From Nitrospira sp. LK70 (GTDB lineage: Bacteria > Nitrospirota > Nitrospiria > Nitrospirales > Nitrospiraceae): 40,157 nucleotides of DNA. Shown here one piece after another: positions 26,820 to 31,823 of the stretch. How positions within the stretch are numbered: the stretch's first letter is position 1; every line of letters begins with the position of its first letter. The notes under the pieces are model-generated. The model saw only the letters and a program-made list of their open reading frames with translations. It did not search any database and was not told the DNA's origin. The stretch is from assembly GCA_011090425.1 (NCBI GenBank), contig PHGD01000033.1:1-40157 (forward strand). The letters are read 5' to 3'. A program made the position numbers and the translations under genes.

Positions 26820-27446
26820 ATGTGTCTCAAGTCGCCTGGCATCACCGGCTTCTCACTTCTGGTGTTCTGCACGGTTATGGTCCTGCCTATGCACATCAGG
26901 GGTGAGACGCCAGGGCCGGCTCAAGTCATATCACGCTTCAACGCGGCACTGATCGAAGCCATGAGAGGCGGTAAGGAATTGGGGTTCAGCGGTCGCTACC
27001 GACTGCTTGAGCCGGTCGTGACAGAGACCTTCTTGCCTCCCTACATGGCGAGCGTCTCCGTAGGCAGACACTGGAAAACTCTCACGGAGGAGCAGCAGCG
27101 GCAGTTTGAAGGAATCTATGCCGAATGGTTGATTGCGAACTACGCGAAGAACTTTCACACATACGCAGGAGAACGCTTCGAGATCACGAAACAGTCCCAG
27201 ACGGCAGGCGGCGCTACAGTCCTGAGCAAACTTCTGAACTCTCAAGGCAAAGAAACCGAGTTCGACTACCGGCTGCGCCTGACGGAGGATGCCTGGCACA
27301 TTGTGGACATACGCATTTCTGGCATCAGTCAGCTTGCCAATACGCGCGCTCAATTTGTGAGCGTCCTTGATAAGAATGGTTTTGACGAGCTCGTTGCGTC
27401 GCTCAAGCGAAAGATTCGGGACTTCTCCCGGAGCGATGGCCGATGA
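26820..27446 (+). CDS. hpnM: Hopanoid-associated MlaC/HpnM-like periplasmic protein
   Basis: A 208-residue MlaC-type phospholipid-binding protein with an N-terminal signal (MCLKSPGITGFSLLVFCTVMVLPM). The mature domain shows the family pattern: PAQVISRFNAALIEAM, then YRLLEPVVTETFLPPYMASVSVG, LTEEQQRQFEGIYAEWLIANYAKNF, AWHIVDIRISGISQLANTRAQF. Members shuttle lipids across the periplasm; the HpnM subset occurs in hopanoid clusters beside HpnN, as here. The ATG has AGAGG seven bases upstream. It is 78 bases from the RND transporter and likely co-transcribed with it. No hopanoid biosynthetic gene is visible in this window. Confidence 0.87.
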   Translation: MCLKSPGITGFSLLVFCTVMVLPMHIRGETPGPAQVISRFNAALIEAMRGGKELGFSGRYRLLEPVVTETFLPPYMASVSVGRHWKTLTEEQQRQFEGIYAEWLIANYAKNFHTYAGERFEITKQSQTAGGATVLSKLLNSQGKETEFDYRLRLTEDAWHIVDIRISGISQLANTRAQFVSVLDKNGFDELVASLKRKIRDFSRSDGR

Positions 27447-27524
27447 GCCAAGGCTCAGACCACGGTTGAGCCGAATGACTGAGATAGTCTGAAGGGCCAA
27501 AGCCTACACCGACCCAAACCAAGC

Positions 27525-30164
27525 ATGTTCATCGAACCTACCCTTACCCGCACACAGCGCCTGCTGAGTGCATGGGTTCTCCTCGTTCAACGTCATGCCG
27601 TCGCCGTTCTCGTGGGCACTGTCCTGTTGACGTTTGGGACTCTCTATTACTCCGCCGTCAATTTCAAGATGAACGCCGACATCCATGCCATGATGTCCGA
27701 CAAGCTGTCCTACCGCGGATTGTACAAGGAGTTCTCGAAGGCCTTTCCACAACAGAGCGACACCGTCGTCGTTGTCATCGATGGCATCACCTCGGAACAA
27801 GCAGAGGCGGCACGGAAAGCTATCGCCGAGCAACTGAGAAAAGATCAGGCGCTTTTTTCCGACGTCTATGAACCAGGGGCCGGAGGGTTTTTTCAAAAGA
27901 ACGGCCTCCTGTACCTGAACACCGAAGAACTGGAGAGACTCGGAGACCGACTCTCGGCAGCCCAACCTTTTCTGGCGCTTCTCTCCAAGGACCTCAGCAT
28001 CCGCGGGCTTTTCGAGGTCGTTGAAAAGGCCTTGGAGCAAGGAGATCTCAGTGAGGCCCAAGACCGTGCGCTTACCCTCCTGCTCGATGGGATGAACAAC
28101 GCCTTCGCCAGCGCGGCCCACGGAACGGTCTACCCGATGTCGTGGGAGGGCCTGGCGTTCGACGCAGAGCAGACCGCGAAGCAATGCCGCCAGTTCATCA
28201 TACTGAAGCCGCGAGTCGCGGATGCATCCCTGTCTGCGGGAAGCGCTCACATCGAGACCATTCGCCGGGTTGCCGGGCAGTTCGGCTACAATCAGACCGG
28301 AACCGCGCGAGTGCGGATCACGGGAGATTTTGCACTTGCTTACGAGAACCTCCTGGAAGTCCGCAATAGCACAGGAATTGCCACTGTCGCGTCTCTCCTT
28401 CTTGTGGCGCTGGTCCTTTCTGTGGGTCTCTACTTCTCATGGCGCCTCATCTTTTCCAGCCTTGTCACATTGATCACGGGGCTCATCTGGTCCACCGCAT
28501 TCGCCCTTGCCACCGTGGGCAGTCTCAACATGATCTCCGTCACCTTCGCCGTGCTTTTCATCGGACTAGGCATCGACTACAGCATACAGTTCTGCCTCAG
28601 ATATCGGGAGCTGCTTCTGCAAAGCGGCCATCAGCAGAATAGCATCACTTCGACAGCCACCAGTGTCGGCAGAAGTCTCTTCTTCAGCGCTGCAACCACG
28701 GCACTCGGCTTCTACTCCTTCGTTCCCACTGCCTATGCAGGAGTGGCTGAACTGGGCTTCATCTCAGGGTCGAGTATGTTCATCAGCTTCTTCGGAAACA
28801 TAACCGTTTTGCCCGCTTTGCTGACCGTCCTCCCCGTGAAGGAGTGCCGGCGGTGGGAACCTTCCTGGCCGTGGCTTGTCGACCTGCCGTACAAGTACCC
28901 GCGCGGCATCGTCGCCGTCGGGGCATTGGGGGCGTTGGTCTCTCTCTTGGCCGTTCCACGAGTCTTCTTCGACTACAACACCCTCAACCTCCACGACCAG
29001 TCATCAGAGTCTGTGGCAACTATGAAGGAACTCTTCAATGACCCTAAGGGTCAGCCATGGACCATTTCGGTGCTTGTGGACGGTGAGGGCAAAGCCCTTC
29101 GTCTCGCCGAGCAGCTGAAGAGCCTTAAGGAAGTCAGAACGGCCGTAACGATCCATGATCTCATCCCGGGCAATCAACAGGACAAGATCCTTCTTATTTC
29201 CGACATCGCTCTTTTCATGTCACCAGAGATCGAGCGGCCTCACGTCACGGCCCCCACCTATGAGCAGAACATTCAAGCGCTGGCACGCCTAGAGCGGTCT
29301 ATCGAGAGCCATCTCAACGGACTTCGACATTCCACCAGAGAGTCGGCGCAGAAGCTTCACGACAGCATCAGAAGATTCAGAGTTCTTTCTGAAGACAGCC
29401 GGGGCGGCTTGTCCGCCCTTGCCCTGCTCGACGAGAGTTTGACGCCCGGGCTTTCCATGCTCCTCGAGAGACTTGGCTCATCGCTGCAACCAAGCCTGGT
29501 AGAGGGACCATCCTCCCTTCCTCAAGAATTGCGGAGTCAGTACGTATCAGCGGACGGCCGCTTCCGTGTTCAGGTGTTTCCACAGAACGACATCACAAAC
29601 CTGGCAAGCCTGGAAGGATTTGTCCGTGCGGTCCGGTCAGTGGCGCCGAACGCGACCGATACACCTGTGTCGGTGTACGAAGCAGGCATGGCCATAGCGG
29701 CCTCTTTCAGGGAGGCCTCGCTTTACGCGGTGATCATCATCTGCGCCTTTGTGCTCGTCGGTCTCAGAAGCAGGTCCAAGACCCTTCTGATACTCACCCC
29801 CATGGCGCTCGCCTTCCTTCTCACGGCCGCCGCATCGGTGTGGCTCGGCGTCCCGCTCAATTTCGCCAACGTCATCGTTGTGCCTCTGGTTCTCGGGATC
29901 GGGGTCCACAGCGGCGTCATATTCATCGTCCGCGACTGGAAAGACCCGAGACGTGAGGACAACCTTCTGAAATCCAGTATGGCCCGCGCCACGCTGTTCA
30001 GCAATCTGGCCACGATGATCAGTACTGCAAGCCTCGCCTTCTCTCCCCACCTAGGAATTGCGAGCATCGGCATCCTCCTGAGCATCTGTCTCGCGTTCCT
30101 CATTCTTTCGACGCTGCTCTTCCTCCCGTCATTGATCGTGCTTCTCAAAGTCCGGGTTGGATAA
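27525..30164 (+). CDS. hpnN: Hopanoid-associated RND transporter HpnN
   Basis: An 879-residue RND/MMPL-family inner-membrane transporter, the expected size for HpnN. There is an N-terminal TM helix (AVAVLVGTVLLTFGTLYYSA) and a first periplasmic loop of about 250 residues (SDKLSYRGLYKEFSKAFPQQ). A first TM cluster (about 285-430) contains the GLGIDYSIQF motif. A second periplasmic loop of about 270 residues follows, then a last TM cluster near 730-870 with GIGVHSGVIF. The two halves are a duplication, each with six TM helices. HpnN moves hopanoids between membranes. No Shine-Dalgarno is obvious. Paired with hpnM upstream. Confidence 0.92.
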   Translation: MFIEPTLTRTQRLLSAWVLLVQRHAVAVLVGTVLLTFGTLYYSAVNFKMNADIHAMMSDKLSYRGLYKEFSKAFPQQSDTVVVVIDGITSEQAEAARKAIAEQLRKDQALFSDVYEPGAGGFFQKNGLLYLNTEELERLGDRLSAAQPFLALLSKDLSIRGLFEVVEKALEQGDLSEAQDRALTLLLDGMNNAFASAAHGTVYPMSWEGLAFDAEQTAKQCRQFIILKPRVADASLSAGSAHIETIRRVAGQFGYNQTGTARVRITGDFALAYENLLEVRNSTGIATVASLLLVALVLSVGLYFSWRLIFSSLVTLITGLIWSTAFALATVGSLNMISVTFAVLFIGLGIDYSIQFCLRYRELLLQSGHQQNSITSTATSVGRSLFFSAATTALGFYSFVPTAYAGVAELGFISGSSMFISFFGNITVLPALLTVLPVKECRRWEPSWPWLVDLPYKYPRGIVAVGALGALVSLLAVPRVFFDYNTLNLHDQSSESVATMKELFNDPKGQPWTISVLVDGEGKALRLAEQLKSLKEVRTAVTIHDLIPGNQQDKILLISDIALFMSPEIERPHVTAPTYEQNIQALARLERSIESHLNGLRHSTRESAQKLHDSIRRFRVLSEDSRGGLSALALLDESLTPGLSMLLERLGSSLQPSLVEGPSSLPQELRSQYVSADGRFRVQVFPQNDITNLASLEGFVRAVRSVAPNATDTPVSVYEAGMAIAASFREASLYAVIIICAFVLVGLRSRSKTLLILTPMALAFLLTAAASVWLGVPLNFANVIVVPLVLGIGVHSGVIFIVRDWKDPRREDNLLKSSMARATLFSNLATMISTASLAFSPHLGIASIGILLSICLAFLILSTLLFLPSLIVLLKVRVG

Positions 30165-30273
30165 CGGGGTCTCGCACACCGCTGGATGGAGCTGTGTGTT
30201 CTGATTCACCGACCTGTCCGCTAGAGGAGAATGGCCCTAGTTAATTTACTAGGGAACGTGTTACAAAGAGACC

Positions 30274-30425
30274 GTGATCAATTGTTATGTGCTGGACGGT
30301 GACAACATACGCCACGGTCTGACCAGAGATCTCGGCTTCGGCACCCTACGAAAAACCTTCGCCCCTGATGTCCCTCTGGAAACAGACGTCAAGACGCTCG
30401 ATGAAGGCCTGTCCATCTCTCGTCG
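30274..30425 (+). pseudogene. Adenylylsulfate kinase (cysC) remnant
   Basis: The frame reads CYVLDGDNIRHGLTRDLGF, a typical APS-kinase segment in which D-G-D-N-x-R binds APS. It then jumps to PLETDVKTLDEGLSIS, which resembles the C-terminal end of that family. The ATP-binding P-loop, normally some 20-30 residues before the first motif, is absent, and about 90 residues between the two parts are missing. The fragment lies between hpnN and a sulfotransferase, where an intact kinase would provide PAPS. The C-terminal match is weaker than the N-terminal one. Confidence 0.6.
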
Positions 30426-30506
30426 AATGGGTATGTGGGCTCTTTTGTCCGCTGCGCCCCGGACAGGGGTATCCTTACGCTTCCGGTACGTCAACAGGTC
30501 TCATTA

Positions 30507-31823
30507 ATGGGTGAGACTCAGAGACAAGAAGTCGCCGCCCATCCTCTGAGACCCACCGTCTTCCCCCCTGCTGACGGCGGTTGGCCAGCACCCCCTCGAC
30601 AGCGCTGGACGGTGGAACGCTCCTTCCTCGTCCACACAATCAACGCGCTGAGCGGCGTTGTCGGTCAGGCAACATGGGCAAGCCTTGAGGAAGAGGAACT
30701 CATAAAGGCGGCAAGCCGCCGGGTCGGCCATGACGACTTTGGTGACGCATCCTTTCGAGAACCTCTCCGCCGCCTCGTTTCGTCTTTTCAGGCGGAAGCC
30801 CATCTTCACCCTCTGGGGCGACTGACCGTTCGTCGCCAACTGACCATGCTCCTGGTCAACCGCTTGCGGATGCAGGACACTCGCAGGCGGCATCCTGGTA
30901 TCGTTGAGCAGCAAATTCGACGACCGCTCATCATCACGGGCCTGCCCCGCACCGGGACGACGTTTCTCCATGGCCTGCTTGCCCTTGACCCAGCCAACCG
31001 GGTTCCACTCACCTGGGAAACCCTGTACCCCAGCCCGCCGCCGGAGGCGGAGACGTACCACGTTGACCGACGCATCGCCCTGGTTGATCGTCAGCTCCGC
31101 TGGTTCCATCGAATGGTGCAGGACGTCAACCGTGTGCATCCCATCGGTGCACGGCTTCCCGAGGAGTGTCTCGTGATCCTCGGCCATTCGTTCATGAGCC
31201 ACCTGTTCGTGGCGAGCCACCGCCTGCCGTCCTACCTTGACTGGCTTGAATCTCAGGACCTCCGCCCTTCATACGAAATACACCGTAGATTCTTGCAGCA
31301 CTTACAGTGGCGATGTCCAGGGGAGCGGTGGGCGTTGAAGACGCCTGCTCACATGTTCGATTTCGAGGCGATGTTCGAGACCTACCCTGACGCCTGTGTC
31401 GTGATGACACACCGCAACCCCATAGAAGTGATCGCCTCCAACGCCAGTCTGACGGCCACCCTCAAATCTGCCTTCAGTGACGAGGTTGATCCTGTTGAAG
31501 TGGGACGCGAGTGTACTCGCAGGTGGTCCGAAGCGCTCCGCAGGGCTCTGCGTTCGCGCGACCACGGCTCCATTCCCTCGGAGCGCTTCCTCGATCTCTA
31601 CTACACTGACCTGGTCGCTGACCCGGTGGCAGCGGTAGAAAAAGTCTATGGACATTTTGACCTGCCCTTGCCCAACGGCCTTCGGGACAAGGTTCGGGAA
31701 TTTGTGAACAGGAACCCGAAGAACCGTTTCGGAACCCACCGGTATCACCTCCATGACTTTGGGTTGGATTTTCAGGAGGAAGAGAAGAGGTATGCCGCCT
31801 ACCGAGAACGTTTTCGCTTGTGA
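30507..31823 (+). CDS. Sulfotransferase
   Basis: A 438-residue PAPS-dependent sulfotransferase of the Sulfotransfer_3 type. The PAPS 5'-phosphosulfate loop is GLPRTGTTFLHGLL at about residues 147-160. A second conserved stretch, WALKTPAHMFDFEAMFETYP, precedes the 3'-phosphate motif VVMTHRNPIEVIASNASL. Near the C-terminus, DLYYTDLVADP and a GTHRYHLHDFGL stretch are typical of this group. The frame opens at a GTG at 30435; ATG 30507 is preferred because the extra residues are not family-like. It lies 341 bases after hpnN and just after a cysC remnant. The acceptor is unknown; a lipid is plausible from the neighbours. Confidence 0.87.
   Translation: MGETQRQEVAAHPLRPTVFPPADGGWPAPPRQRWTVERSFLVHTINALSGVVGQATWASLEEEELIKAASRRVGHDDFGDASFREPLRRLVSSFQAEAHLHPLGRLTVRRQLTMLLVNRLRMQDTRRRHPGIVEQQIRRPLIITGLPRTGTTFLHGLLALDPANRVPLTWETLYPSPPPEAETYHVDRRIALVDRQLRWFHRMVQDVNRVHPIGARLPEECLVILGHSFMSHLFVASHRLPSYLDWLESQDLRPSYEIHRRFLQHLQWRCPGERWALKTPAHMFDFEAMFETYPDACVVMTHRNPIEVIASNASLTATLKSAFSDEVDPVEVGRECTRRWSEALRRALRSRDHGSIPSERFLDLYYTDLVADPVAAVEKVYGHFDLPLPNGLRDKVREFVNRNPKNRFGTHRYHLHDFGLDFQEEEKRYAAYRERFRL

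Follow-up and report, generated by a model that had tools for sequence, protein, structure and literature searches.

A partly decayed hpnM-hpnN-sulfotransferase cassette in Nitrospira that may make and export a sulfated membrane lipid

Hopanoids are bacterial relatives of cholesterol and serve as biomarkers for ancient bacteria. In the export of mycobacterial sulfolipid, the PAPS sulfotransferase Stf0 is paired with an exporter of the MMPL family, MmpL8. For hopanoids, the accessible part of one account describes HpnN as the shuttle to the outer membrane and the function of hpnL as not established, and makes no mention of a link between hpnL and a sulfotransferase (PMC12583986). The genes shc and hpnH have been reported in marine Nitrospirales, and nitrifiers are named among hopanoid sources in the titles of references cited there; the main text of this source contains no words beginning with sulfotransfer or sulfolipid (PMC10579370). 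In the open literature (most subscription journals lie outside it) we found no mention of a sulfated or sulfonated hopanoid, a hopanoid sulfate or a hopanoid sulfotransferase, nor of hopanoids together with the term "sulfated lipid"; hopanoid and sulfotransferase both occur, unrelated to each other, in the available portion of one article (PMC8776678).

The locus described here lies in Nitrospira sp. LK70, on contig 77 of a 4.7-Mb genome (G000); the window is the whole stretch of 40,157 nucleotides that was analyzed. The gene hpnM (26820..27446, forward strand) encodes an MlaC-like periplasmic lipid carrier that scores 185.5 bits against TIGR03481 (cut-off 160.1) and matches PF05494 (MlaC) with an E-value of 1.2e-37. 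The gene hpnN (27525..30164, forward strand) encodes an RND/MMPL hopanoid transporter with 854.9 bits against TIGR03480 (cut-off 751.85); the solved HpnN structures 6wu0 and 5khn match it across its length with E-values of about 1e-111. Its score against the newer equivalog model NF052374, 644.5 bits, is below the cut-off of 1100; the same model also misses the HpnN of G257 (714.2), which is encoded in a hopanoid cluster. Pairwise dN/dS ratios are 0.10-0.47 for hpnM (21 pairs) and 0.22-0.58 for hpnN (10 pairs). Comparison of the block formed by hpnMN and the sulfotransferase gene (ST) with plasmids by megablast gave zero matches. At loci L067, L068, L070, L071, and L111, hpnM or ST is adjoined by a two-gene block, which in L070, the one scanned for its content, comprises an HpnA-like epimerase (315 bits, short of the 367.65 required) and a PanE/ApbA-like reductase; this block is absent beside the window hpnM. 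Radical-SAM genes are present near the duplicate cassette copies L067, L068, and L069; those of L068 and L069, when scanned, scored far below the cut-offs for both HpnJ and HpnR and were rejected as either.

Between hpnN and ST lies the N-terminal part of a gene for APS kinase, cysC (30190..30342, forward strand). This remnant is interrupted by three in-frame stops, one TGA and two TAG, and has no complete CysC reading frame. At 30193-30342 it covers positions 3-52 of the 152 positions of PF01583 with 26.8 bits (cut-off 21.1), and its E-value is 1.4e-5 in a search of the whole genome with the APS-kinase profile. The following region (30343..30481, forward strand) is probably the eroded rest of cysC, judging by blastn comparison with other hpnN/ST gaps. 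The comparison covered seven such gaps from five Nitrospira genomes. In L065, L066, and L068 the counterpart of window positions 30282-30481 is missing, the alignments breaking at 30281-30282 and 30482; L067 (G054 contig 4) still aligns across 30189-30416. In each of the seven gaps cysC is recognizable, if only as a short trace, with most retained by the window and G054 contig 4; none contains an intact gene. When the gaps were compared by blastx with seven intact CysC proteins, the CysC of G374 was the best match for six of them (47% identity over 53 columns, E-value 4e-11, for the window remnant; only a weak match, E-value 0.04, for G055 contig 2), and was tied, with an E-value of 0.10, in the seventh (G055 contig 1). 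These matches suggest that cysC arrived with the cassette and was then eroded in every copy seen. Chance similarity was rejected as an explanation, because the same sequence, likewise broken, occurs in other Nitrospira copies and the fragment passes the family cut-off genome-wide. The initial annotation, which had placed hpnM and hpnN beside a sulfotransferase and the remains of cysC, is thus confirmed by the family profiles, the match to G374 CysC, and the broken copies in relatives. Another APS-kinase match with one TGA and two TAG stops was observed in a genome of the genus that has no such cassette (G001:C1:1178134-1178502).

ST (30507..31823, forward strand) encodes a 438-aa protein of the PAPS-dependent Sulfotransfer_3 family (PF13469; E-value 6.7e-42, 144.6 bits, cut-off 27). 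Its start is most likely the ATG at 30507, which is conserved among relatives; the GTG at 30435, which falls inside the cysC remnant, is disfavored. In an alignment of 21 homologues that includes the window protein, the latter retains all 59 invariant columns. The segment PRTGTT (30945..30962, forward strand), with P147, R148, and G150 invariant, is the 5'-phosphosulfate loop, and the segment HRNP...S (31410..31439, forward strand), with H302, R303, P305, and S311 invariant, is the 3'-phosphate-binding segment. P147, R148, G150, K278, H282, H302, R303, and S311, the 5'- and 3'-phosphate-binding residues of the PAPS site, are kept in 21/21 sequences. The AlphaFold model of ST (pLDDT 83) superimposes on the mycobacterial sulfotransferases STF1 (Z 41.8 over 359 residues) and STF9 (Z 41.3), the next fold match being a human tyrosylprotein sulfotransferase with bound PAP (Z 15.4). 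By sequence and by this model the protein belongs to a PAPS-using family and fold, and use of PAPS is predicted for it; PAPS genes beside ST in relatives are indirect support for such use.

ST is open across 438 codons in each of the six Nitrospira copies that are not cut short by the end of a contig. Its pairwise dN/dS ratio is 0.21-0.55 (21 pairs, G218 included), reaching 0.55 in some pairs, and is 0.24 against the nearest copy; judged from these ratios and the reading frames, the gene is intact and under purifying selection. Second copies of the cassette were observed at L067 9738-11165 (G054 contig 4) and L068 7564-11338 (G055 contig 2). In these duplicates hpnN is shattered or truncated and ST is open, so that ST can do without the neighboring hpnN. 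A more distant sulfotransferase is found in a group of the same order, g16 (L103, L104, L105, L106, and L107), fused behind a thioester-reductase domain in the loci scanned for families (L103 and L105) and adjoined by cysN-like genes in L103, L104, L106, and L107 and by cysC in L105.

The initial annotation had also supposed that PAPS is now supplied from elsewhere, and intact cysC genes were indeed found. The window genome has six APS-kinase matches, of which those on C123, C81, and C145 extend over the full length; C123 and C81, the two taken into the NCBIfam scan, both pass adenylyl-sulfate kinase cut-offs. The C81 gene is 86% identical to a G218 cysC sited about 2.4 kb from hpnM. The intact cysC on C123 sits, as judged from sequence reading, among genes of sugar-nucleotide and glycosyl-transfer functions. 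About 28 kb from it on the same contig, a short APS-kinase fragment matching profile positions 90-128 was observed (G000:C123:54734-54847; L005, L126).

ST co-occurs with hpnN. Within Nitrospira, ST is present in 5/79 genomes, and strong hpnN matches occur in the same five; the hpnN search of the genus matched 31 genomes, the other 26 weakly, with a best E-value of 1.8e-8. Among 395 Nitrospirota genomes, ST is found in 19, hpnN in 35, and both in 18 (Fisher p 1.4e-20, phylogeny being ignored; 2.3e-16 once the 14 g16 genomes with hpnN are set aside, kinship again being ignored). The sole ST-bearing genome without hpnN, G334, has ST at a contig end; 17 of the 35 hpnN-bearing genomes are without ST. 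The two genes directly adjoin each other in G054, G055 contig 1, G066, G012, and G218, and on G055 contig 2 ST adjoins a truncated hpnN. The cassette hpnN is 41-53% identical to its counterparts in most genomes of other classes and 34-37% to those in most genomes of the same order. This closer similarity across classes suggests transfer: the cassette was probably acquired horizontally, most plausibly from another class of Nitrospirota, and has partly decayed since.

In relatives, ST is physically linked to HpnL and to genes of PAPS metabolism. In G406, mlaA, hpnM, HpnL, and ST form an uninterrupted run that adjoins the end of hpnN; G403 and G358 have ST with a class-III aminotransferase and HpnL, and G257 and G382 have HpnL beside ST. 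In G374, cysC, cysQ, and an aminotransferase gene are followed by a gene for a single 779-residue HpnL-sulfotransferase protein, with HpnL at residues 30-338 and the sulfotransferase at 481-731. In G218, a member of another genus of the same family, hpnM, hpnN, and ST are followed by a class-III aminotransferase gene (L111 11895-13270) split by a frame change, which is either decay or a sequencing error. A Geobacter MAG (L013) has cysD, cysNC, ST, and an HpnL-like gene (140.6 bits, below the HpnL cut-off of 195.65), Geomonas (L021) has cysD, ST, and an HpnL-like gene, and L015, L018, and L020 combine ST with an HpnL-like gene; an HpnN-like transporter is also present in L015 and L020, that of L020 scoring 511.7 bits (cut-off 751.85). 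In the survey of 21 loci, which supplied all the loci from outside Nitrospirota, HpnL or an HpnL-like gene is near ST in seven, including L008 and L009, which are the Nitrospirota G403 and G358; in others, HpnL is absent or the locus ends too soon, several being cut by contig ends. HpnL (TIGR03476) exceeds its cut-off in six of the 395 Nitrospirota genomes, and in all six the gene either adjoins ST, lies one gene from it, or is fused to it.

Most Nitrospira genomes also carry an HpnL-like gene (G000 C171, 152.8 bits); being genus-wide and below the cut-off, it was not counted as HpnL. The window genome has neither a cassette-type HpnL nor the aminotransferase, and the cassette aminotransferase is missing from the genus, where the closest matches reach an identity of about 40% (for the window genome, 37%). 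Against NCBIfam, in a comparison without an HpnO model, this aminotransferase is closest to PigE, below the cut-off.

The neighborhoods thus bear out one part of the initial annotation, the coupling of ST to hopanoid-transport and PAPS genes, and go against another. Two findings together had been named there as fatal to its reading, an unrelated acceptor of the sulfotransferase and the lack of an intact cysC between hpnN and ST in relatives. The second of these is what we observe: no intact cysC lies in any of the seven Nitrospira gaps, nor in G218, whose gap of about 0.1 kb is too short for cysC. Where an intact cysC is linked to ST, in G374 and the Geobacter MAG, it sits beside ST and not between hpnN and ST.

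Several observations tie the cassette to hopanoids. In the window genome both shc and hpnH exceed their cut-offs, so that hopanoid production is predicted for it; shc passes its cut-off in all 18 Nitrospira genomes tested, the five with the cassette and 13 picked others. In G257, hpnN is clustered with shc, hpnA, hpnH, and an HpnK-like gene, and in G358 the neighbors of hpnN include hpnJ. In 31 other ST-bearing genomes, the hopene cyclase gene shc is above the cut-off in 22 and gives some match in 27; no match was found in G334, L022, L023, and L025, and L014 has one of only 22 bits. Thus not every ST-bearing genome makes hopanoids by this measure, five having no convincing squalene-hopene cyclase; these five are drafts or MAGs, none with HpnL detected by ST. 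Wherever HpnL or an HpnL-like gene lies at ST, in 11 genomes, shc sequence is present as well (nine above the cut-off, two, G374 and L015, as fragments), which is consistent with a hopanoid link. HpnJ or cyclitol-ether chemistry as the source of the ST substrate in Nitrospira found no support, since among 18 genomes HpnJ exceeds its cut-off only in G257, G382, G334, and G358.

We give an even chance to the following explanation: the locus is a partly decayed, probably transferred cassette that makes and exports a sulfated lipid, most likely a sulfated bacteriohopanepolyol. ST would move sulfate from PAPS to a membrane lipid, at a hydroxyl (or amine) group, in the cytoplasm or at its membrane face. 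The acceptor would most likely be a bacteriohopanepolyol produced through the Shc and HpnH that the genome encodes; HpnL, where present, would handle the product, and HpnN and HpnM would carry it in sulfated form through the periplasm into the outer membrane. A cysC of its own would formerly have belonged to the cassette, the PAPS now coming from the other cysC genes. We infer which lipid is accepted, in what order the steps run, and that HpnN and HpnM export the sulfated form. As five ST-bearing genomes are without convincing shc, a sulfated hopanoid is best regarded as the putative product. The suggestion of the initial annotation that a sulfated membrane lipid was or is made here is partly supported: the linkage of ST to hopanoid-transport and PAPS genes in relatives speaks for it, and the five genomes and the gaps without an intact cysC speak against it. 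Counting against our own explanation are also the 17/35 hpnN genomes without ST, the open ST beside a shattered hpnN, the ST dN/dS of up to 0.55, the sub-cut-off score of the deltaproteobacterial HpnL-like protein, and the absence from the window genome of a cassette-type HpnL and of the aminotransferase. Since Nitrospira lacks these two, whatever product it may have could be simpler than that of G374.

The acceptor might instead be another exported membrane lipid, such as a glycolipid or a long-chain alcohol, with HpnL and HpnN serving that lipid or the neighborhood reflecting envelope functions only. The breadth of the PF13469 family would allow this, as would the 5/31 genomes without convincing shc, and in relatives that we guess to be Leptospirillum-type ST is fused to a thioester reductase, a partner of fatty-acyl type. 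However, hopene cyclase sequence accompanies HpnL or its like beside ST in 11/11 genomes, and the hpnN of G257, and that of G358 at least with hpnJ, are in hopanoid clusters; we consider a non-hopanoid lipid somewhat unlikely. An ordinary sulfotransferase with a soluble or polysaccharide acceptor, beside hpnMN by accident, is improbable. As hpnMN and ST probably moved as one block, to judge by the hpnN identities, shared ancestry alone could keep them together, and the surroundings of the intact cysC on C123 would suit a polysaccharide; but linkage of ST to HpnL, HpnM, and HpnN recurs in differing orders in G406, G374, G403, G218, and the Geobacter MAG, once as a fusion to HpnL, and a single block is insufficient to explain that.

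Decay raises the further question of whether the cassette is a dying relic, with cysC dead, HpnL and the aminotransferase lost, and ST on its way out. The broken cysC of all seven gaps, the shattered hpnN of the two duplicates, and the frameshifted aminotransferase of G218 would fit such a fate. ST itself does not: its frame is open in all six copies not cut by a contig end, its pairwise dN/dS ratios are 0.21-0.55, its invariant columns are kept, and other cysC genes are intact. We therefore regard a relic as very improbable.

Returning to the sulfated-hopanoid reading, an extension of it to the whole group of relatives seems to us slightly less than evenly likely. Here, a dedicated ST would work with HpnL, a class-III aminotransferase, and a PAPS-supplying and PAP-recycling system of its own in a hitherto undescribed branch of hopanoid modification. 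The products, exported by HpnMN, would be hopanoids bearing sulfate and perhaps also an amino group, both in Nitrospirota and in certain deltaproteobacteria; HpnL would act on the membrane side as a partner in such head-group modification or a similar one. With ST tied so often to hopanoid genes in relatives, a sulfated membrane lipid not described before is a real possibility. If true, a sulfated hopanoid would carry a type of anionic head group that is new and that the usual extraction or ionization modes can easily overlook, and the reading of hopanoid records would change. The link to ST is also a first testable clue to HpnL, all six above-cut-off Nitrospirota copies of which (TIGR03476) adjoin ST.

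Among described systems, the hpn transport genes of Rhodopseudomonas and Burkholderia resemble the window pair, whose products pass the TIGR cut-offs for HpnM and HpnN. Unlike them, the window pair adjoins a sulfotransferase and a dead cysC, and few Nitrospira have hpnMN although shc is general among those tested. The closest solved proteins to ST are the mycobacterial STF1 (2zq5) and STF9 (2z6v), with sequence E-values of 1.9e-62 and 3.1e-50, respectively, whereas the gene neighbors of the window ST are different. The Stf0/MmpL8 system acts on another core lipid but shares with this locus the combination of a PAPS sulfotransferase and a lipid exporter of the MMPL family.
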